Below, one piece after another: positions 19,742-29,973 of a DNA stretch of 52,292 bases (the first letter of the stretch is position 1; every line of letters starts with the position of its first letter). The notes under the pieces were generated by a model. It saw only the letters and a program-made list of their open reading frames with translations, was not told the origin of the DNA and searched no databases. The stretch covers positions 1 to 52,292 of the forward strand of contig CAIVPR010000046.1 in the NCBI GenBank assembly GCA_903907865.1, in the 5' to 3' direction. The translations under genes were made by a program, and so were the position numbers. This stretch comes from an uncultured Acidobacteriia bacterium (GTDB lineage Bacteria > Acidobacteriota > Terriglobia > Bryobacterales > Bryobacteraceae).

Positions 19742-20809
19742 ATGCGGATCGGAACCGCCGGTTTTGTCGCGGCCAGGCTCATCTCTGCCCGCGAAGCTCG
19801 AGGGGTAACGCAATCGGAGTTGGCGGAATCGACCGGGATCAAGCCGCAAAGCATCAGCCACTACGAACAGGGACGGCAATCTCCCAGTCCCGAAACATTG
19901 GCCACCTTGGCCGAAAGACTATCCCTCCCGGAACGCCATTTCCTTCGCCCGATGCCGCAGGCACGGATCCTGCATGGTTCCGTGGGCGAACAGTCCAGGT
20001 TGCGTTGGCTGCAGGAGCTAGCCGCCTACATTCGTGAATTTGTTGAGTTGCCTCCGCTGCGGCTGCCAAGGTTCCAGCCGGAGGAGCCCGTTTCCATGGA
20101 AGCCCTTGCAAGCGCCGCCCGGACCTACTTCCACGCGGGTTCGGGCCCAATTGCCAGCGTCACGGCCTTGCTGGAAAACCACGGCTGCGTCGTGACGCGG
20201 CTTCCATCCGGCGGTGACCACGCCGGTTTCGCCTTGCTGTCTTTCGACGACATACCGTATGCCGGGATATCGTGCGGCCGCCAGCCCAGCGAATGCCGCG
20301 TGGTGATGGCGCAGGCACTCGGGTATTGGATGCTCTTCGACCAGGTAGAACCAGCGGAACTCACCAAGCGCGCCGAGGACTTTGCCCGCGCCTTCCTGCT
20401 TCCCGCGAAGAGCTTCGGCAAGGAAGTCTGGTCGCCGACAATCGACGCGCTGCTGTCGCTGAAGCGCCATTGGAACTGTCCGCTGGCTGTGTTGTTACGC
20501 CGATGCGCGGACTTGGACCTGCTGGATTCGGAGCAGGCCCGGCGGGCACTCGGAAACATCGGGCGGCGTGGATGGAAGACTGAGGAACCCGGCGAGCTTG
20601 CGGGTGAAGCCGAGCAGCCCCGGTTGCTGGCCCAGAGCGTCCGTCTCCTACTGGATTCCGGGGTGAAGGACGTCCACAGTCTGCTGGCAGACGTGGCTTT
20701 GGGTGCTGGCGACGTGGAGGAACTTGCCGGGCTGCCGAAGGACTACTTGCGCGGGGTGGATTCGGTCGTGGAGTGGGCTCCGCGTCTGCGGCGGGCATCG
20801 GCGGGGTAG
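19742..20809 (+). CDS. XRE-family regulator fused to an IrrE/ImmA-like domain with lost zinc motif
   Basis: 355 residues. Residues 8-65 are a Cro/CI-type helix-turn-helix (LISAREARGVTQSELAESTGIKPQSISHYEQGRQSP). Residues about 85-300 follow the ImmA/IrrE (COG2856) layout that in relatives forms a metallopeptidase acting on regulators. Here the position of the HExxH site reads Q191-A-L-G-Y195 within RVVMAQALGYWMLF, where active members have AHELGH. Both histidines and the glutamate are missing, so it is probably a non-catalytic sensor or regulator. GGAAGAG precedes the ATG. A 6-bp inverted repeat (ACGACG / CGTCGT, 19695-19718) upstream may be an autoregulatory site. It lies downstream of a terminator and ends at its own small terminator. 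Confidence 0.8.
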   Translation: MRIGTAGFVAARLISAREARGVTQSELAESTGIKPQSISHYEQGRQSPSPETLATLAERLSLPERHFLRPMPQARILHGSVGEQSRLRWLQELAAYIREFVELPPLRLPRFQPEEPVSMEALASAARTYFHAGSGPIASVTALLENHGCVVTRLPSGGDHAGFALLSFDDIPYAGISCGRQPSECRVVMAQALGYWMLFDQVEPAELTKRAEDFARAFLLPAKSFGKEVWSPTIDALLSLKRHWNCPLAVLLRRCADLDLLDSEQARRALGNIGRRGWKTEEPGELAGEAEQPRLLAQSVRLLLDSGVKDVHSLLADVALGAGDVEELAGLPKDYLRGVDSVVEWAPRLRRASAG

Positions 20810-20987: not shown

Positions 20988-23399
20988 CTACCGGCGGAAG
21001 AGCAGCAGCGCTCCGGCAAGCCCGACGACGGCTCCCAGAACCCAAGACAACGGCACGACGCGCGGGATTCTGGTCCCGGCGTCACCACTCAAGACAAACG
21101 CGGCCCAATGGAAAGGGTGCCGCCCGGAAACCTCCAATTTCGCCTCTCGCAGGGCCTCCCCCGCGGTTGCACCGGAAGCGAGCTTCTGGTAGAACCGACC
21201 CATGAGAGCTGCCGACGACGCGTCGTCCACGGGCCATAGGGTAGCCACCACGCTGCGGGTGCCGGCACTCAACAGCGCCCGGCCAAACGATTCCACACCT
21301 TCGCCCTCCACGATTGCGCCGCCTTCGGTTTCGCACGCGGAAAGAGTGACGAGGTCCACGCCATGAAAGTCCAACCGTTGCATCTCGCCCAGATACATTG
21401 GATCACCGGATAGCGCGATCCGGGAACGGGCGGGGTCTTCCACATCGTTTACGGCGTGTGCCGCAACGTGGACAACGACGGGCGCGGGATTCGCGAGTGC
21501 CTTTTGGAACGCGGTCTTGGTCGCGTCGACCCCAAACAGAACGGTCGCAGCCCCACCTACGGAATCAGCAACATTCCGGGCCTCGGAGCGCGCGCTTGGC
21601 AGAGGCGCCAGGTTTCCGGCCGGATCCGCCACGGCCACCAGCGACTTTGCCCAAAATGGCAGCCAGCGCCGCGCGGGCTGGGCGGGGGACAGCTGGGCCT
21701 CTGAAAGCAGGGCGGCGGACGGCAAATATGAGATCGGGACCCCGGGCATCATCAATTCCATTGGCAGCAGAGCCAGTTCACGATCCGGGACGACGACCAC
21801 CGCGACACCGGACGAATCGAACAGGAGCTCCGCGCGGAGGGCGTCGGCAGCCGGTTTCCAATCAACCGACCGGGGATCCCGGAGGAGCCGGGCCAATCCA
21901 GCGATTCTTCGGCGCAGACCCGGCGGCGTCCTTCGGAAGTTCACTCCCGCACCCCCGGACGAAACGCTGACCATGGCGATCGCACTGTCACCCAGCCAGT
22001 ATTCCTGCACGACTCTCCGGTCCCCCAGCCGATGTCGGGTGGTGGCGAGGTTCGCCGGTGCAAGGCGGTCTTGCACGGTCCGAGCGCGCGACATCTCGAT
22101 CCAATGAAAGACCGCGGCCGCATCGGGCTTGGCCGCGCCGGCGGCCTCCTCGATCAACAAATCGTAAACTTGGCGCTTATCGGCCAGGAATCCGCCACGC
22201 AAGCCGGATGGGCCGGCTGTCCGGAGCGATTCTATGATTCCCACCGACTGTTCGAGTCGGGAAGCGGCCATGGCGTGGTCGCCGACGGCCAAGTCGGTCC
22301 GTGCCAATCCATGAAGAACCTTCCATTTGTCCTCCGGCGATTTCACCGCATCGGCAAGGGCCAATGCATCTAGAAATCCGTCGCGTGCCTGGGGAACTTT
22401 GCCGACTCGAAGCAATGCCTCGGCCCGGTAGAGCGAGGCTTGGAGTTGGGCTGGACGGGCACCGGCAGCTTTGGCCATGGCAAGGGCCTGCTCGAATGCC
22501 AGCAACGCTTTTGTGCTCTCACCGAAATCGAGAGCCTCGGTAATGCCGATGTTGATCTGCACCCCGATCTCGCCGCTGCGCAAGCCATGGCTGCCGTAAA
22601 TCGCCTTGGCGGATTGATATGTCTCCAGCGCTTTGCCGGGATCCCCAAGGCGCCGGTACAGGGATCCCATGTTGGTGAGCAACTGCGCGGACTCCGTGGC
22701 GGACAGGCCCCCGTGTTTGGCCCGAAGATCGGCGTAGGCGTCCAGAGCACGCTGGTAGAGGCCCAGTCTTTGGTAGACCACGGCCATGTTGGCGGTGGTA
22801 AGTTGGCGCCGGGAATCGGTCCATGGCGCGCGCGGGGAGGTATTCAACAAGCGCATGGCTTCGTCCAACCGGCGCATTCCCCCGGCGTAGTTGCCTTGGA
22901 AGTACAGGATGTTGCCTATATTGTTCAATCTGGTCACGGTGGCCGCCGGGTCGTTGCGCTCCTTGGCAATGGCTAGGGCGGATTCGGTGTCCGTGAGAGC
23001 GGCGGCATAGTCCCCGGCGTAGGTCTCGGACATTCCAACGAGGGTGATTGAATCACCAGCGCCGCCCTTGTCGCCGATCCGCGTGAATTGGCTGGCCGCA
23101 TCCCTGGCCCGCGCAGTGGCTGCCGAATACTGGCCGTCGGACAAATCGAGACGGGCCAGCTCCATGGTTGCGCGTGCCTTCTCGGGAGCGGTGGCCGTCT
23201 TGGAAGCGGCAATCTTTTCGAAAGCGGCACGGGCACCCCGGTTGTTTCCGGCGCGGGCAAGTGCCAAGGCCGAAGCGATTCCATCCGGCGCTAGCTCCGC
23301 CGCAGCCGACAAGGATGGCAGCGACGGTGCGAACACGAACAGGACAAACAGGCCCGCACCTGCGGCCCACGGTCGATTGGCGGACGGTTTCGCGGACAT
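20988..23399 (-). CDS. TPR-CHAT protease-like protein with C-terminal membrane anchor
   Basis: 803 residues: an N-terminal hydrophobic segment (AAGAGLFVLFVFAPSLPSLSAAA), about ten TPR units over residues 45-400, then a CHAT domain of the caspase-like clan. The catalytic pair is visible as His648 in VVVHVAAHAVND and Cys689 in LVTLSACETEGG, followed by GEGVESFGRALLSAGTRSVVATLWPVDD. A hydrophobic C-terminal anchor (SWVLGAVVGLAGALLLFRR) closes the protein. CHAT proteases cut specific partners after a trigger bound by the TPR part. With a signal at one end and an anchor at the other, the active domain may lie in the periplasm. It is divergent from the secreted protein at 23615 and next to an ECF sigma operon. 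The Shine-Dalgarno (AGAAGG) directly abuts the ATG. Confidence 0.88.
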   Translation of the reverse strand: MSAKPSANRPWAAGAGLFVLFVFAPSLPSLSAAAELAPDGIASALALARAGNNRGARAAFEKIAASKTATAPEKARATMELARLDLSDGQYSAATARARDAASQFTRIGDKGGAGDSITLVGMSETYAGDYAAALTDTESALAIAKERNDPAATVTRLNNIGNILYFQGNYAGGMRRLDEAMRLLNTSPRAPWTDSRRQLTTANMAVVYQRLGLYQRALDAYADLRAKHGGLSATESAQLLTNMGSLYRRLGDPGKALETYQSAKAIYGSHGLRSGEIGVQINIGITEALDFGESTKALLAFEQALAMAKAAGARPAQLQASLYRAEALLRVGKVPQARDGFLDALALADAVKSPEDKWKVLHGLARTDLAVGDHAMAASRLEQSVGIIESLRTAGPSGLRGGFLADKRQVYDLLIEEAAGAAKPDAAAVFHWIEMSRARTVQDRLAPANLATTRHRLGDRRVVQEYWLGDSAIAMVSVSSGGAGVNFRRTPPGLRRRIAGLARLLRDPRSVDWKPAADALRAELLFDSSGVAVVVVPDRELALLPMELMMPGVPISYLPSAALLSEAQLSPAQPARRWLPFWAKSLVAVADPAGNLAPLPSARSEARNVADSVGGAATVLFGVDATKTAFQKALANPAPVVVHVAAHAVNDVEDPARSRIALSGDPMYLGEMQRLDFHGVDLVTLSACETEGGAIVEGEGVESFGRALLSAGTRSVVATLWPVDDASSAALMGRFYQKLASGATAGEALREAKLEVSGRHPFHWAAFVLSGDAGTRIPRVVPLSWVLGAVVGLAGALLLFRR

Positions 23400-23614
23400 C
23401 CTTCTACCAGAGTCTCAGATTGGGCATGCGTGGTGGCGCAATCCGAAGACTTCCCGATACCGTTTGTGCGGAAAATTCTCTGGCCCGCAGGATTTTCCTG
23501 TTCCAGCCGATCCACTCACCTGTCCCAGCGGACGGCGACCATCCGAAGGCATCGAGGATGCCATGGGAGCGCACCCGCCCAACGCGGGAATTCAATCGGA
23601 GGAAGAGCAAAGAC

Positions 23615-25084
23615 ATGTTACAGAAACAATCATTGACAGGGGTGTGGCGGCTGATCGCGCTGGCTGCTGTGCCGGCCGCGATGTGGGGCCAAACGGCGCT
23701 GGTTTCGGGCACACTCGGAGCGTTCGACGTGCTCAACGACTCTGGCCAGGAAGCCCACGGTTTCGAAATCCAGATCGACGGCGTGCTGCCCGGCGACCTT
23801 TATTACTCGGTTTGGGGTGGGCGTTATGGCCAACCCAACATCGTGGCCTACGCAACCGGCGTCTACGTGCGGTATGCCAGCGCCTATGACGCAACCACCG
23901 GCACGTGGGTCGCAACCACGCCGATCGCCACCGGCACGAACTTCTCCTGGCAGGATTGCTATCTGGGCGGGTTTCGCTATGCGCAGTCGGGATGCGAGCA
24001 TCTCGGACAATCGATGCGCGCCCTGAAACCCGGCACGGTGGTCACCGTAACCGGTCGCTGGCTGGTGGAGGACCCTGCCGCACCCGGCACGTTGGTTGCG
24101 GTTGATCCACCAGCCGCGGTGCCTTTTGCCGGCTGGTTCCTCAGCCCTCCAGTTTCCACCGTCCCTGCACCGCCTGTGGTCGTCGCGAAGGTTGTGGCAC
24201 CCATCCCGCCCAAACCGGCACGGTTTGGGGATGCCCAGTGGGTCAAGATCTTCAAGACCGAACTGACCCGTCCGGTGACCGGAGATGAATTGACCAGTGA
24301 CAACACTGCGGTTGTGCCGGAAGCCGCCGCGCAGGTGGAAACCGCATGGGACATCCTCCAAAACCCGTTTCCGGGAGCCAAGACCCGAAAGAACCGTAGT
24401 ACTCGGAACAACCAGGCCGCCTTGTCGATAAACGGGGCATCTGTGGTGCGCCGCTACGAACTCTACAAATACACGGGAGCCTATGATCCAATTACGCACG
24501 AAGCACTGTGTGCCGATACCACTTGCACGGCTCCGGGTCCCGGAGAACTGGGTGCGCCGCTCAGCGCCAATAATACGGCCACCAATGTTACCGCCGATTC
24601 GCTCGCTGTGGCCGTTACTGGCAGCGGTGCGAAATCCGCATCAGTAACCGGCACGGGCATCTCCTGCGGCAACCTGTGCTCATCATTTGAAACCAATGGT
24701 GCGGTTGTCACCCTGACCGCGAATCCCGGGGCCAACGTTTTCGGCGGATGGACGGGCGCTTGCGGCGGAACACAGACCACCTGCTCGGCGACCATCAACG
24801 GCAAGACAACGGTGGGGGCGAGCTTCCTGCTACCGTACACATTGTCGGTGGGCCGATCCAACAGCGGCACAGTCTCGGCCAGCCCCAACGGGATTGATCG
24901 CGCGCTGAGCTGCGGTTCCAACTGTTCGGCAAAGTTTGCCGATGGAACACAGGTCACGCTCACGGCGACCCCGTCCGCGGGCAAGGCATTCGTCAACTGG
25001 TCCGGGGCTTGCTCCGGTACCAGCCCTGTTTGCACCTTGACGATCACCGCCAATACTTCCGTCCAAGCTGTGTTCAGCAAGTAA
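23615..25084 (+). CDS. secreted protein with C-terminal bacterial repeats
   Basis: 489 residues from the ATG at 23615, where GGAGGAAGAG lies upstream. The signal peptide is LQKQSLTGVWRLIALAAVPAAMWGQ. Residues about 25-190 are a beta-rich domain of unknown family with two cysteines (DCYLGGFRYAQSGCEHLGQS). A Pro-rich linker follows (VPAPPVVVAKVVAPIPPKP). The C-terminus carries two copies of a repeat like the Listeria-Bacteroides/PF18998 type: VTLTANPGANVFGGWTGAC and VTLTATPSAGKAFVNWSGAC, each with a Cys pair. Such repeats are cell-surface modules. It shares a 215-base divergent promoter region with the CHAT gene and ends in a strong terminator. Function unknown. Confidence 0.75.
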   Translation: MLQKQSLTGVWRLIALAAVPAAMWGQTALVSGTLGAFDVLNDSGQEAHGFEIQIDGVLPGDLYYSVWGGRYGQPNIVAYATGVYVRYASAYDATTGTWVATTPIATGTNFSWQDCYLGGFRYAQSGCEHLGQSMRALKPGTVVTVTGRWLVEDPAAPGTLVAVDPPAAVPFAGWFLSPPVSTVPAPPVVVAKVVAPIPPKPARFGDAQWVKIFKTELTRPVTGDELTSDNTAVVPEAAAQVETAWDILQNPFPGAKTRKNRSTRNNQAALSINGASVVRRYELYKYTGAYDPITHEALCADTTCTAPGPGELGAPLSANNTATNVTADSLAVAVTGSGAKSASVTGTGISCGNLCSSFETNGAVVTLTANPGANVFGGWTGACGGTQTTCSATINGKTTVGASFLLPYTLSVGRSNSGTVSASPNGIDRALSCGSNCSAKFADGTQVTLTATPSAGKAFVNWSGACSGTSPVCTLTITANTSVQAVFSK

Positions 25085-25090
25085 GGAAAG

Positions 25091-25120
25091 CGGCGGAGGA
25101 ACCCCGGTTCCTCCGCCGTT
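25091..25120 (+). terminator. strong intrinsic terminator
   Basis: A perfect 13-bp inverted repeat (CGGCGGAGGAACC / GGTTCCTCCGCCG) with a two-base centre is followed by TTTCGTCT. It separates the secreted-protein gene from the sigma-factor operon. Confidence 0.85.
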
Positions 25121-25232
25121 TCGTCTCCCATGACCTCCCAAATCGCACTGGCGCATGCACAGACCGTCCGCTCAGGATGCGTCGCCGGCGTGCGCTTCGC
25201 CATTCCCGAATTCGTTGGCGTTACTGTGGCGG

Positions 25233-25238
25233 TATACT
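25233..25238 (+). promoter_or_regulatory. -10 box close to the sigma-factor start (possible leaderless gene)
   Basis: TATACT is followed by eight bases and the ATG at 25247. No Shine-Dalgarno sequence is present between them, which fits a leaderless transcript. The -35 region is unclear. Confidence 0.4.
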
Positions 25239-25246
25239 CGACAGCA

Positions 25247-25822
25247 ATGCGGGATTGCAGCGACGAGGACCTCGTTGCGAAGTACTGCGACGAATCCAGG
25301 CCACGCGAATTCCGTGACCAAGCGGTGGATGAGCTCTTTGACCGCTACCGCGGGAGGGTTGCCGCGTGGTGCCTCCGCTGTGTGGGCGACCGGGACTGGG
25401 CCGCCGACTTGGCCCAGGAGGTGTTTCTCAGAACCCTGAGGGGCCTTCATACTTTCCGTGGAGGGTCAAAGTTCTCCACATGGTTGTACAGCATTGCCCG
25501 CAACCACTGCTTCAACGCACGGGAATCGAGAGCATTCCGGGGGGAGCAGCCACTTGCCGACATCGACGTGGCGGACCAATCAATTCTGCCGACACCAGAC
25601 AATTTGGTGGCAAAGGAAGATCTGCGCCGTATGCGCGATTTGGTCAACAAAACCTTGGACGAAACCGAACTCCGAGTGATGACACTCCACTACGGCGAGG
25701 AGCTAAGTATCGACTCGGTCACACGTCTCCTGGGTTTGCGCAACGCCAGCGGGGCCAAGGCCTACATCGTCAGCGCGAAGAGAAAACTCCAAACAGCGGT
25801 CCGCCGCTTCCGAAACGGTTGA
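25247..25822 (+). CDS. ECF-type RNA polymerase sigma factor
   Basis: 191 residues from the ATG at 25247 (an in-frame ATG at 25130 would add 39 residues unlike the family). Region 2 is clear: LFDRYRGRVAAWCLRCVGDRDWAADLAQEVFLRTLRGLHTFRG then FSTWLYSIARNHCFN. Region 4 is at about 140-190 (LDETELRVMTLHYGEELSIDSVTRLLGLRNASGAKAYIVSAKRKL). Group IV sigma factors direct RNA polymerase to a small regulon and are usually held by an anti-sigma factor encoded next to them. Here that is the gene starting three bases after the stop. No -35/-10 pair repeated between this operon and its neighbours was obvious, so the regulon cannot be told. Confidence 0.88.
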   Translation: MRDCSDEDLVAKYCDESRPREFRDQAVDELFDRYRGRVAAWCLRCVGDRDWAADLAQEVFLRTLRGLHTFRGGSKFSTWLYSIARNHCFNARESRAFRGEQPLADIDVADQSILPTPDNLVAKEDLRRMRDLVNKTLDETELRVMTLHYGEELSIDSVTRLLGLRNASGAKAYIVSAKRKLQTAVRRFRNG

Positions 25823-25825
25823 AGT

Positions 25826-26560
25826 ATGGACGAGCCGAACAACATCGACCAAACAATCCGAAAGGCCCTTTCGCACGGGCCCGACTGCCCCCCGCTTGAG
25901 CAACTACTGGAGGCCGTCGAGAACCGGCAGGCGAATTCCAAGATCGTTCAGCATGCCGACTCCTGCGCTGCGTGCAAGACGGAGATTGCCTTGTACGAAA
26001 GGTTTTCAGACGATTCCGTGTTGACATCGGAACGGTCGGACGTCGCATATGTGGTTCGACGCCTTCGCGGGGTCCAAACCCCGCCCCCATCGAAAGGTCT
26101 CGGGGCTTGGCTTCGCGCGCTCTGGACGAGCATTTCGGTTCGCCCCGCACTGGCGGGCGGATTCGCAATGGTAGCTGCAGCCGCCTTGTTCTTCATCGGG
26201 CTTCCCGCGCCAAAGCAAATCAAAGTGCCCGTCGCGGAGTCGGATGCGATCGTACTGCGCAGTTCATCCATTCGCGTATCGACCCAGCTGGATGACCTGA
26301 AAGAGTTTCCGGAAGAGATCCGCTGGGAGCCGGTTCGCACGGCCAATTCGTACGATGTGACTCTGGCCGAGGTAGACCGCACTGCGCGTTTTCACAAGAA
26401 TGTTACAACTCCATCAATTCATGTGCCTGAAGAAACAAGGACAATGGTGGTACCAGGCAGACCAGTTGTACTGCACATTGTCGCACTCGACGCGAATGGA
26501 CGGGAAGTTGCAGACTCAGGTCCGCTGCTGATACACGTCCAACGCGGTGGTGCGAACTAA
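25826..26560 (+). CDS. membrane anti-sigma factor with zinc-finger motif
   Basis: 244 residues. The cytoplasmic part carries the ZAS-type H-x3-C-x2-C motif at His43, Cys47 and Cys50 (VQHADSCAACK). One membrane segment lies at about 106-126 (VRPALAGGFAMVAAAALFFIGL). The periplasmic part (127-244) is beta-rich and fibronectin-like: WEPVRTANSYDVTLAEVDRTARF, then PGRPVVLHIVALDANGREVADSGPLLIHV. The order matches transmembrane anti-sigma factors, with an outside domain that could sense a ligand or partner. It starts three bases after the sigma gene and ends 15 bases before a secreted-protein gene, so all three form one operon. Confidence 0.82.
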   Translation: MDEPNNIDQTIRKALSHGPDCPPLEQLLEAVENRQANSKIVQHADSCAACKTEIALYERFSDDSVLTSERSDVAYVVRRLRGVQTPPPSKGLGAWLRALWTSISVRPALAGGFAMVAAAALFFIGLPAPKQIKVPVAESDAIVLRSSSIRVSTQLDDLKEFPEEIRWEPVRTANSYDVTLAEVDRTARFHKNVTTPSIHVPEETRTMVVPGRPVVLHIVALDANGREVADSGPLLIHVQRGGAN

Positions 26561-26575
26561 CTCGGAGGATGATAG

Positions 26576-27676
26576 ATGAAAGCACTTGCGACGACCCTTC
26601 TGGGATTGCCGTTCATGACTTCCGTTCTTTGGTCGGCTGCGACCCGGACGCCCCTACCGCCCAATGTGGTGGAGGTCGGGATTTCGAGCGCCGTCGCGCC
26701 ATCACCGGGAACGGTCCAGTTGCAATTCAAACTCACCGAACCTCGTCCGATCATGAGCAGCGGCACGGACATGCCCTTGAACGGATTTACAGGCAACGGA
26801 ATCGCCGTTTGGAGCCCAGACGGCATGGCCTGCGGAGCCGGCAGCATTTCGAACGGAATCCTTCATTTCACTACGGTTGACCCGACCGGGAGCTTGGGAA
26901 CGGGCTTGGACTATCCCTATCTCACCGTCACGCTCGGAATCCCGAAGGGCGTTCCAGTTGGCACGGCAATGCCATTCAACTGGGCTCCCACCGCATCCAT
27001 TTCAGGCCCCGGCGGCACGTACAGCGCGGTAGTCAAGCCTGGAAGTGTGACGGTGGGCGGCAGTTTGTCGATCGCGGATGTGATTCCGGGAGGCGGCACG
27101 TATCCGGCTGGAACGGTCGTGCGGACCATCGGTACAGGCTTCCTAAGGGGATTGCGCCTTTCCACGCCTGTCCGCACGTCCTCCATGACGGTGCTGCCGG
27201 ACGAGATCGTATTGCTGTTGAAGGAGCAGACTACCCTGGACTCGCAGATGTTCCAGGTTACCAATCCAAACGGAGCCACAGCCACCTATTTTTCCTATCT
27301 TCGCGGAATCGGCTTGCGGGTCCCGTCAAAGGGTTTGCTGCAGGCAGGTGAATATGCGTTTCCGTCCGCCCTCCATGCGTTGGCCACTATCGGGCCGATG
27401 GCACCGCTGACTGGCAGCCAGTACGTTGCACTGGCGCTGCAAAATCCGAATCCGGGGCCGGCCGCAGTTTCCATCGCGCTCAACAACGGGGCCCCCACGC
27501 TTCTGGTGCTACCCTCCGGCACCCGAATCGTGGATACGGTTTCCCAGCTCTTGAACGGTGCCAAGGTGTCGGCTGGCGACGTGGTTCATGTCACGTCTAC
27601 GGCAATGATCCAGATCATGGGCCTGAATGCCGACGACTCAACTCAGAGGATCACCCCGTTCGTGCCGACGTTTTAA
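26576..27676 (+). CDS. secreted protein of unknown function in the sigma operon
   Basis: 366 residues with a signal peptide (KALATTLLGLPFMTSVLWSA). Residues 30-160 resemble a cohesin/immunoglobulin-like beta-sandwich (VEVGISSAVAPSPGTVQLQFKL, YLTVTLGIPKGVPVGTAMPF). Residues 165-260 look IPT/TIG-like (GSLSIADVIPGGGTYPAGTVVRTIGTGF). The C-terminal third reads like a repeated adhesin-type module (ALQNPNPGPAAVSIALNN). GGAGG lies ahead of the ATG. Third gene of the ECF operon, so it may be the signal, target or structural output sensed by the anti-sigma factor. The 170-base convergent gap that follows (27677-27846) shows no clear gene or terminator. Confidence 0.75.
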   Translation: MKALATTLLGLPFMTSVLWSAATRTPLPPNVVEVGISSAVAPSPGTVQLQFKLTEPRPIMSSGTDMPLNGFTGNGIAVWSPDGMACGAGSISNGILHFTTVDPTGSLGTGLDYPYLTVTLGIPKGVPVGTAMPFNWAPTASISGPGGTYSAVVKPGSVTVGGSLSIADVIPGGGTYPAGTVVRTIGTGFLRGLRLSTPVRTSSMTVLPDEIVLLLKEQTTLDSQMFQVTNPNGATATYFSYLRGIGLRVPSKGLLQAGEYAFPSALHALATIGPMAPLTGSQYVALALQNPNPGPAAVSIALNNGAPTLLVLPSGTRIVDTVSQLLNGAKVSAGDVVHVTSTAMIQIMGLNADDSTQRITPFVPTF

Positions 27677-27846: not shown

Positions 27847-28899
27847 TCAGAACTTCGAGGGGTCGATCCGCCACACGTTGTGCGCCCTGAGATTCGAGAG
27901 CCACACCGACCCGTGTCCGGCCCGGATGGAATCGCCACCGTCGCCGACCCATTGCCGAATCACGGTGTTGGTGCCTGGATCGATCTCCGTGATCGGCATC
28001 TGGAAGACCGTCGCCCAGACATGTCCGAACCCGTAGGCGATCTCTCCGCCGCCGCCCGGAATGCCCGCCTCAATGCTCGTCACCAGCTTCCGCGATTTCG
28101 CGTCCACGCGGGAAATGGTGCCGTCGCCCTGGTTCAGCGTCCAGACCGCGCCGCCGCCGAAGGTGACGAAGCGCGGGCCTGGACCGGTCTCGATGGAGTC
28201 GGTCACCTTGTTCGTCTTGGCGTCCACGCGGGTCAGCATGTTGGCCTTCGGGGTGGTGACCCAGACCGCTCCGTCGCCATAGACGACGGCGGCGGAACCG
28301 GCGGGGATATCCACCGTCGCCGATACGGTATTGGTCTTGGGGTCGATGCGCGAGAGCTTTCCAGCAGCGTCGGTCACCAGCCAAACGGCGTCGTCACTGG
28401 CCGCGATTCCGCCTTCGCTCTCGGCCGGGGGGGCCTGGATGGTGGCGACCACCTTGTTGGTCTTGATGTCGATGCGCGAAACCGTCTTATCGCCGCAGTT
28501 GGGTACCCAGATGCTGCCGAAGCCCGCCGTCAGACCCGAACAGGGCCGCTTGCCGACCTCAATATTCGCTGCGACCTCGTTCGTTTTGACATCGAGCCGG
28601 TGCACCGTGTTGGTGGGGCCGTTTGAAACCCACACGGCGTCGTCGGTCAGCACCTGCCAGTCCGGCGTGCCACCGGTGGTGAACACGGCAATGGGCGTGA
28701 TCGTGGTCATCTCACGCTTGACGCCGGGCGTGCTCACTCCGGGGGGCGGAGGACGCTTGCCGCCCTTCTTCTTCTGCATGGGAGGCTGGCCGTCGGCGGG
28801 CGGGGGGGCCTGTTCCTGTTGCGCTTGCAGTAGCAGGAACGGCGCGCAGACCCCGGCGAGGAAGCCTGCCGAAATTGGGAGGAAACGATGTGCCTTCAT
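27847..28899 (-). CDS. secreted YVTN-type beta-propeller protein (virginiamycin B lyase-like fold)
   Basis: 350 residues. A signal peptide (KAHRFLPISAGFLAGVCAPFLLLQAQ) is followed by a Gln/Pro/Lys-rich linker, a GVSTPGV motif at 54-60 and then a seven-bladed propeller. Blades repeat xxxVWVSNGPTNTVHRLDVKTN, SIWVPNCGDKTVSRIDIKTN, AVWLVTDAAGKLSRIDPKTN, AVWVTTPKANMLTRVDAKTN and so on. The fold resembles virginiamycin B lyase, but such exported propellers usually bind rather than cleave, and no lyase residues can be claimed. GGAG lies about ten bases before the ATG. It follows a paralogue after 18 bases, in the same operon. Confidence 0.82.
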   Translation of the reverse strand: MKAHRFLPISAGFLAGVCAPFLLLQAQQEQAPPPADGQPPMQKKKGGKRPPPPGVSTPGVKREMTTITPIAVFTTGGTPDWQVLTDDAVWVSNGPTNTVHRLDVKTNEVAANIEVGKRPCSGLTAGFGSIWVPNCGDKTVSRIDIKTNKVVATIQAPPAESEGGIAASDDAVWLVTDAAGKLSRIDPKTNTVSATVDIPAGSAAVVYGDGAVWVTTPKANMLTRVDAKTNKVTDSIETGPGPRFVTFGGGAVWTLNQGDGTISRVDAKSRKLVTSIEAGIPGGGGEIAYGFGHVWATVFQMPITEIDPGTNTVIRQWVGDGGDSIRAGHGSVWLSNLRAHNVWRIDPSKF

Positions 28900-28917
28900 T
28901 GGGTTGGGCTCCTGGTG

Positions 28918-29973
28918 TTATTCGGCGAGTGTTGCGAGGACCAGTTTCGGATCGATCCGAGAAACCGTCCCGTTGTTCAAGTTCGAGAGCCAGATCGCGC
29001 CCGAGGAGGTCAGAATCCCGCCGCCGCCTTCACCCCAGAATTGCTGCGCCACCGTTTCCTTGCCGTCGGTAAGGTCCACCCGGGTCAGGGGGAATCCGCT
29101 CATGGTGACCCAGAGGTAGCCTTCGCCGAAGGCCATGGCCCCCGCAGAATCCGGTACGGCGAGGTCGATGGTCTTCGAGACTTTGTCGGTCTTGGGGTCG
29201 ATGCGGTCGATCTTGCCTTCTTTGCCGCAGAGGACCCAGATGGCCGACTGCCCGGAGACGAGCGCGACCGGCTTGGCACCCACGTCGATCCGCTTGTCCA
29301 CAAGGTTGGTCGCCGGATTGATGCGCAGGACCTTGTTCTGTTCGGGACAGGCCAGCCAGAGCGAGTTTTCGGCGAACACCATCTGACCGCAACCAGTCGG
29401 CACGCGGAGCTCGCCGACGATGGCGTCCTGGTCGGGATCGATGCGGACGATGGTCTGCTTGCTGTCGGTGATCAACCAGATGCTGTCCGCGCTGGCTGCG
29501 ATGGAGCCCCGAACATCCAGAACACCGGTCTCGATGGAAGATTTCACCTTGAGGGAGCGGGGATCGAGGCGCAGCAGCTTGCCGTCGCCACAGGACGGAA
29601 CCCACAGGCTGGCGAACGCGTTCACCATACCGCCGCAAGGGTGCTTCACGGACGGGATCGGATCAACCGCCGTGTTTCCCTTCGCTTCAAACTTGAGGAC
29701 TTTCTCGGCGTCTGGCGCATAGAGCGCACCGGGCCCCTGGGCGGCGAAGTATAGGAAGGCGGGCTTGGCCGGGGTCGTCAAGGTTGCTTCCGCCTTGATT
29801 TGGGAAAAGGGAATCTGCACCCCTGGCGTCTTGACGCCCTGCTTCGGCGCTGCCAGCTTGCTGGCAACCACTGCCGCGGTTTTCCCCTTCGATGAAGCCT
29901 TTCCTTCGGCGGCGGCGGACTGGCTGAACGCAGCCTGCCCCAACAGCGCGAGCAATCCAATGAAGACACGCAT
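28918..29973 (-). CDS. secreted YVTN-type beta-propeller protein, paralogue of the next gene
   Basis: 351 residues with a signal peptide (RVFIGLLALLGQAAFSQ), a Lys/Ala-rich linker with GVKTPGV at 46-52, then a propeller with blades such as SLWVPSCGDGKLLRLDPRSL, SIWLITDSKQTIVRIDPDQD, SLWLACPEQNKVLRINPATN and AIWVLCGKEGKIDRIDPKTD. Layout, length and the motif before the first blade match the downstream gene, so the pair arose by tandem duplication. Both keep a Cys pair around blade 2 (HPCGG...WVPSCGDG here, RPCSG...WVPNCGDK in the paralogue), possibly a disulfide. First gene of the two-gene operon. Confidence 0.82.
   Translation of the reverse strand: MRVFIGLLALLGQAAFSQSAAAEGKASSKGKTAAVVASKLAAPKQGVKTPGVQIPFSQIKAEATLTTPAKPAFLYFAAQGPGALYAPDAEKVLKFEAKGNTAVDPIPSVKHPCGGMVNAFASLWVPSCGDGKLLRLDPRSLKVKSSIETGVLDVRGSIAASADSIWLITDSKQTIVRIDPDQDAIVGELRVPTGCGQMVFAENSLWLACPEQNKVLRINPATNLVDKRIDVGAKPVALVSGQSAIWVLCGKEGKIDRIDPKTDKVSKTIDLAVPDSAGAMAFGEGYLWVTMSGFPLTRVDLTDGKETVAQQFWGEGGGGILTSSGAIWLSNLNNGTVSRIDPKLVLATLAE

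Follow-up and report, generated by a model that had tools for sequence, protein, structure and literature searches.

Regulated intramembrane proteolysis of anti-sigma factors is known from the DegS/RseA/RseB/RpoE and PrsW/RsiW systems, in the first of which RseB-type proteins act on RseA. CHAT proteases elsewhere are cell-death or defence enzymes, while separases cut after Arg and have an Asp in the S1 pocket; to our knowledge, the characterized members of the CHAT/separase group are cytoplasmic or nuclear. Here, we describe a locus of an uncultured Acidobacteriia bacterium, located in a 52,292-nucleotide stretch of DNA (contig CAIVPR010000046.1; the entire stretch is referred to as the window), in which the gene of a TPR-CHAT protease is found together with genes for an extracytoplasmic function (ECF) sigma factor, a putative membrane anti-sigma factor, and secreted proteins. 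The described system closest in function is type III-E CASP, in which Csx29 cuts Csx30, the inhibitor of CASP-sigma (PMC10028731).

As in the type III-E CASP system (PMC10028731), a TPR-CHAT protease, a sigma inhibitor, and an ECF sigma are coded together. The locus differs in its protease, which carries apparent export and anchor signals, and in its putative inhibitor, a membrane protein that combines a zinc motif with an FN3 domain. With the Csx29 model NF041237, the protease reaches 19.7 bits where the cut-off is 300, and no search was made for Cas7-11, Csx30, or a CRISPR array. Because the Csx29 score falls far under the cut-off, and Cas7-11 was not searched for, the module is not filed as type III-E CASP. 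In layout, the locus resembles DegS/RseA/RseB/RpoE, having an ECF sigma, a single-pass anti-sigma, an exported third operon protein, and an outer protease predicted to be membrane anchored. Unlike DegS and PrsW, however, the protease is a caspase-fold CHAT protein and, unlike RseB, the third protein is a cohesin-IPT protein. With the CHAT/separase cysteine proteases (clan CD), the window protein shares a CHAT domain scoring over the Pfam cut-off and a His/Cys pair, whereas the signal-like start and C-terminal anchor set its clade apart.

In our opinion, the chances lie slightly in favor of the CHAT protein acting as the site-1 protease of the anti-sigma, which would make the module an extracytoplasmic counterpart of Csx29/Csx30/CASP-sigma. 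Regulated proteolysis of anti-sigmas is already known; a site-1 protease that is exported and has a caspase fold is absent from the literature surveyed. Among the matches listed, titles and abstracts mention no such module of CHAT, sigma, and anti-sigma, subscription papers lying mostly outside the search. Within the literature searched, "CHAT domain" and "ECF sigma factor" occur together only in PMC10028731, and no paper joins HetF, CHAT, and PatU3.

The TPR-CHAT protease and the sigma operon

The presence of a TPR-CHAT protein with a His/Cys pair, an export-like start, and a C-terminal helix beside ECF sigma and anti-sigma genes, first noticed in a sequence-only reading of this DNA, is confirmed. 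Pfam matches are clear for the CHAT domain, the TPRs, the sigma factor, and the InlB-type repeats of a further protein in the window. The protease comprises 803 residues (20988..23399, minus strand). Its catalytic domain (residues 529–773; 21081..21815, minus strand) matches PF12770 at 185.3 bits, the curated cut-off being 24. Both His648 (codon 21456–21458) and Cys689 (codon 21333–21335) are invariant in 13 full-length orthologs from the window's family (alignment A4), and the pair is kept in the orthologs whose sequence spans the catalytic region without a frame break; the CHAT of locus L115 is frame-broken and that of L118 stops short of the Cys. Asp726 is likewise invariant in the 13 full-length orthologs, whereas the Csx29 chains shown carry Ser at the aligned position.

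A hydrophobic, signal-like N-terminal stretch, read by eye, is present in the same 13 orthologs. The window protein ends in a predicted membrane helix (residues ~781–800; 21000..21059, minus strand) followed by a basic tail, and, judging by hydropathy, a helix of this kind with basic residues after it is present in most orthologs; L115 and L125 have broken frames in this region. Because of the signal-like start and the C-terminal helix with its basic tail, the CHAT domain would sit outside, next to the membrane, a placement that fits the location of the anti-sigma linker.

The sigma operon lies on the plus strand. Its first gene (25247..25822) encodes an ECF sigma factor of 191 residues from the likely start, with matches to Sigma70_r2 (E = 4.1e-17) and TIGR02937 (66.3 bits; cut-off 42.9) and a weak match to region 4 (12 bits). 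The second gene (25826..26560) encodes the membrane anti-sigma. The zinc motif previously proposed for this protein is borne out: an alignment of 29 rows shows no variation at H43, C47, or C50, and the Pfam search gave no zf-HC2 match at the motif. The predicted structure places a helix at residues 110–124, followed by a linker, residues 125–144, in which all residues bar one have a predicted local distance difference test (pLDDT) score below 50; the outer domain lies beyond. The suggestion that this outer domain is fibronectin-like holds as well, as its top structural matches are FN3 domains or FN3-containing proteins.

The third gene (26576..27676) encodes a secreted protein of 366 residues that had been described as IPT-like. 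The description captures part of the protein: the model, of high confidence, comprises a cohesin domain, a tentative IPT-like domain, and one further beta domain. The test for a cohesin structure was positive in structure prediction, and the rows of the VIA structural listing are mainly cohesin- and Ig/IPT-like folds, with the last domain barely covered.

Recurrence of the module in related genomes

The sequence-only reading had treated the CHAT gene and the trio of sigma, anti-sigma, and secreted-protein genes as a unit, to be taken for a chance neighborhood if CHAT were rarely found near the trio or if the trio occurred without CHAT. Neither pattern was found. Recurrence was assessed in 121 genomes from the window's family, a CHAT being counted as intact if it was matched at 188 bits or above or, in G088, if two matches summed to 285. 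An intact CHAT is present in 14 of these genomes, and an anti-sigma match of at least 39 bits in exactly those 14; no such anti-sigma was found without CHAT in the 121 genomes, and two further matches, in G091 and G045, are weak (20–23 bits). In 12 of these genomes, a single contig carries the CHAT and anti-sigma genes no more than 5 kb apart; the other two, of genus g2, have them on separate contigs. The 12 linked loci contain the IPT gene in 11 cases and the sigma gene in 10, the contigs of the other two ending first. Of the two secreted proteins previously counted in the unit, the cohesin-IPT protein retains its place, while the InlB-repeat protein is only an occasional neighbor.

A second sample came from a profile search for CHAT in named genomes, made with two peptide patterns and with the best 80 kept; the counts are therefore lower bounds. 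It yielded 77 loci, 41 of them with CHAT of the window type, and some genomes are shared with the family sample. The cut of 470 bits was chosen by eye where the scores leave a gap, and L126 and L132, both partial, were added; L131 was left out of the 41 as a TPR protein of 1486 residues in spite of its 532 bits. The anti-sigma gene adjoins CHAT in 32 of the 41 loci. Among these 32, the module sigma is present in 30 (the contigs of L102 and L105 end there) and the cohesin-IPT gene in 28. Six of the nine loci without an adjacent anti-sigma have one elsewhere in the assembly (L092, L093, L094, L099, L118, and L126); none was detected in the assembly of L119. Loci L100 and L111, which bear the same isolate name and represent one metagenome-assembled genome (MAG), have a module copy each, so that two paralogous systems may coexist.

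Another line of evidence is the fate of CHAT in genomes without an anti-sigma. Two such genomes, G053 and G122 (no match above 36 bits), carry a window-type CHAT in a neighborhood uncut by a contig end. In G053, the CHAT protein keeps its anchor and has lost both His and Cys. The CHAT frame of G122 (locus L119) ends before the His; there is no catalytic remnant behind, and no tRNA was found at the break. The catalytic pair therefore tracks the presence of the anti-sigma in these two cases, which are few and both go the predicted way; it should be noted that G053 is 91% complete, so that an anti-sigma may have been missed there.

A further line of evidence is the persistence of the gene pair in changing arrangements. 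At most loci, the sigma, anti-sigma, and cohesin-IPT genes converge on the CHAT gene; all module genes are codirectional in a smaller group, to which L113 of Bryobacterales bacterium F-183 belongs, CHAT is divergent in the window and in L108/L117, and L095 is mixed. In a tree of 37 module CHATs and 7 outgroups, 36 module CHATs form one clade (98/88), which includes one from a MAG labeled Deltaproteobacteria; L121 (Thermoanaerobaculum) falls outside. On this tree, two changes lead to the codirectional and two to the divergent arrangement, of which the starred branches force at least one and at least two, respectively. The adjacency of CHAT and anti-sigma is kept through these rearrangements. 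Chance neighborhood or passive co-inheritance would be compatible with the limited clade and with the separation of the genes in two lineages, yet the survival of the adjacency through several rearrangements and the ECF linkage that recurs in other CHAT families (see below) make such an explanation exceedingly improbable. Chance neighborhood was rejected on this ECF linkage and on the recurrence in family and named genomes.

The arrangement also bears on the identity of the substrate. The cohesin-IPT and CHAT genes stand tail to tail at most loci, and the 3′ ends of the convergent pairs overlap by 7–98 nt in 23 of 23. The CHAT protein might thus cut the cohesin-IPT protein, which would be the real regulator or sensor, and the anti-sigma would respond to the cut protein in an RseB-RseA-like manner. 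Within the family, every one of the 14 module genomes has a cohesin-IPT homologue, as do 10 others of the 121, often inside longer proteins. However, the cohesin-IPT gene is absent from L096, L098, and L114, where CHAT still adjoins the anti-sigma, its match in L121 is weak (48 bits), and at the loci read from other CHAT families the third gene is another one or is missing. Because L096, L098, and L114 keep CHAT and anti-sigma without cohesin-IPT, the anti-sigma is the more constant CHAT partner. We regard cleavage of the cohesin-IPT protein in place of the anti-sigma as unlikely.

Promoter motif and putative sigma targets

Of 30 module sigma genes, 19 have the motif TGTTC-N17-TGTC upstream; in five shuffles, no word of this form exceeded 3. 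Looser forms bring the number to 27 of 30 loci, against a mean of 0.23 per 30 in 200 shuffles. Strict sites number 108 in the 14 module genomes, where the reversed pattern gives 51, and 40 in 14 other genomes, where it gives 44. Because of the ratio of 108 to 51, about half of the module-genome sites are expected by chance. The list of putative regulon members was drawn from 92 motif matches in 90 loci examined of the 108 sites, G100 contributing four copies of one repeated site; setting aside sites in coding frames left 38, of which 30 precede genes of at least 100 residues after removal of copies. Genes behind these non-coding sites are exported-looking in 18 of 30 cases versus 62 of 219 in the background (p 0.0013 with a crude predictor). 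Given the motif counts and this enrichment, the most likely targets of the sigma are a small number of exported proteins and, in the majority of relatives, the sigma operon itself. Upstream of the sigma gene of G069 (L337/L350), two divergent motif copies are found, the second of which precedes the gene of a small signal-bearing protein. Three homologous pairs of exported-looking proteins across genomes (L356 and L420, L413 and L418, L366 and L384), each member behind a strict motif, are likely further regulon families.

In the window, the motif, as TGTTCC-N15-CTGTCC (23499..23525, plus strand), precedes the InlB-repeat gene and not the sigma gene, and it is the sole strict copy in the genome assembly. 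The InlB-repeat gene (23615..25084, plus strand) encodes a secreted protein of 489 residues and is separated from the sigma operon by a strong terminator-like hairpin (25088..25121, plus strand; one listing puts it on the minus strand). The InlB-repeat protein is a predicted target of the sigma. Strong homologues (at least 200 bits) in 61 genomes are found in 5 of 7 module genomes versus 2 of 54 others. Of the seven InlB copies of module genomes, five (G000, G058 twice, G059, and G040:C506) have a strict motif within ~200 bp upstream, and two (G040:C856 and G001:C147) have none. A further InlB-type gene stands behind the motif in G083 (L391), and the one InlB copy examined from a module-free genome (L329 of G054) has no such site.

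The idea that the InlB-repeat gene is a fixed part of the cluster was rejected. The gene is missing from the other 20 family loci examined and lies beside CHAT in 2 of the 41 named loci; the 77 named loci contain no InlB homologues except in L133 and L118, plus partial repeat matches in L115. In L133 (6113–7807; 51% identity) and L118 (2731–4674; 42% identity), the homologue is directly upstream of CHAT on the same strand, with a loose motif ahead in the former and no motif in the latter. These neighbors, the motif carried by InlB homologues, and the signal-like proteins encoded by many motif-borne genes agree with a view in which exported products of the sigma regulon, the InlB-repeat protein among them, are matured or trimmed by CHAT, and some other site-1 protease controls the anti-sigma. 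Nevertheless, two module genomes of the seven have no strong InlB homologue, InlB genes are rarely found beside CHAT, and the loss of the catalytic pair goes, in its two cases, with the absence of the anti-sigma. Such a role is, in our opinion, unlikely.

The position of the motif is also relevant to a possible toxic role of CHAT. A PADLOC search matched the CHAT protein weakly to BovA (E = 8.7e-8) and gave no match for the four other proteins of the module region; assignment to a known defence system was rejected, the matches being weak only. The BovA match and the death and defence functions of CHAT proteases elsewhere are what one would expect if CHAT brought about damage or death induced by stress, its gene simply accompanying the sigma system. 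Its export and anchor signals, the missing PADLOC matches of the other four proteins, and the absence of the sigma motif upstream of all 40 CHAT genes (own strand) make a death effector very unlikely.

The module is flanked by other genes of the window. Adjoining the CHAT gene, 19742–20809 encodes an XRE-type regulator with sub-cut-off similarity to a repressor/antitoxin of the spr1629 family, and 27847–29973, on the other side, holds a tandem pair of genes for beta-propeller (YVTN/Vgb-like) proteins.

Candidate cleavage, other CHAT families, and biological meaning

The anti-sigma linker ends in Arg145 (linker with Arg145, 26198..26260, plus strand), and an Arg occupies this position in 35 of 35 class A anti-sigma rows; same-genome copies had been dropped from the alignment, and L108 and L117, of which only fragments aligned, were left out of the count. 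Weaker outer-domain matches elsewhere in the family begin past Arg145 in all but one of those listed, and such local alignments cannot show that the Arg is absent. An Arg column is also seen in anti-sigmas of other CHAT families (26 of 27 rows, 24 of them followed by G, S, or A; alignment read by eye). An Arg followed by G, S, or A past the membrane helix occurs in 33 of 34 class A proteins (p 0.0007) and in 22 of 25 proteins of the other-CHAT-family set (p 0.054), both relative to CHAT-free anti-sigmas, with 33 of 50 having it within 50 residues of the helix; L202 and L224 have no helix by the threshold used. On account of the 33 in 50, R-[GSA] was rejected as a stand-alone signature. The conserved Arg column is a candidate cleavage site, and it is treated as a lead only, because the CHAT-free control shows that Arg with a small residue is common.

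We infer the cut, its site, the signal, and the order of events as follows. The TPR-CHAT protease would be exported, and its C-terminal helix would tether it to the inner membrane on the outer side. A signal would reach CHAT, possibly through the TPR part or the cohesin-IPT protein, whereupon CHAT would cut the anti-sigma in the flexible linker between the membrane helix and the FN3 domain, possibly after Arg145. An intramembrane M50 protease (the genome encodes three M50 proteins) would remove the remaining stub and free the ECF sigma. The freed sigma would presumably recognize TGTTCC-N16/17-TGTC and turn on exported repeat proteins, in this case the InlB-repeat protein, together with its own operon in most relatives.

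Several observations weigh against this sequence of events. Linkage alone names no substrate, and two lineages (L092/L093 and L094) carry the CHAT and anti-sigma genes apart. In L097 and L109, the CHAT is intact and the assembly yielded no anti-sigma; each contig stops within the cohesin-IPT gene or shortly past it, and these ends presumably account for the missing anti-sigma. The export of CHAT is read from sequence, and the C-terminal helix of L101 and L120 is weak by hydropathy. The motif is missing directly upstream of the sigma gene in the window, L104, and L095, as it is upstream of the CHAT genes. The InlB homologues adjoining CHAT in L133 and L118 speak for a link of CHAT with the InlB protein too. 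Finally, CHAT-free anti-sigmas frequently have the Arg with a small residue, and one family of them, of ~345 residues, also keeps an Arg past the helix.

Association with ECF genes extends to other CHAT families. Within the window's family, an ECF gene lies within 2.2 kb of these CHATs in 26 of 40 loci, or 24 of 33 with complete flanks, whereas 12.0% of random positions have one at this distance (20 stretches of 15 kb). A protein with an H-x3-C-x2-C motif is encoded upstream in 27 of the 40, with a predicted helix in 25. L200, L206, and L210 represent a second type of four-gene operon, with the order ECF sigma, H-x3-C-x2-C membrane protein, unknown protein, and TPR-CHAT. A crude pattern finds a lipobox-like CHAT start in 16 of 40 loci, two of them doubtful. 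ECF genes also lie within 1 kb of more distant CHATs from the named search (L128, L129, L143, L144, L148, L149, L153, and L159). Because the outgroup CHATs fall outside the window clade on the tree, the association is not limited to this clade. A broader proposal, which we put forward tentatively and with more doubt than confidence, is that CRISPR-free extracytoplasmic CHAT site-1 proteases control ECF sigmas widely, being anchored by a C-terminal helix, lipid-held, or merely exported. Each would have its own zinc-motif anti-sigma with an Arg site in the linker, and Csx29/Csx30/CASP-sigma would have branched off from this older arrangement as a cytoplasmic form triggered by RNA.

The module bears on the choice of targets by CHAT proteases that lie outside CRISPR and gasdermin loci, as a conserved set is now in hand that comprises a protease, a candidate substrate with one candidate site, a sigma, a promoter motif, and a target gene. 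If the proposed cleavage is true, a caspase-fold enzyme would join the few known site-1 proteases, and the protease-sigma circuit that RNA activates in type III-E CRISPR would gain a possible origin. In soil Acidobacteria, this CHAT is co-inherited with a sigma switch, a pattern suggesting, though not proving, that genes are turned on when a caspase-like enzyme outside the membrane cleaves the inhibitor.

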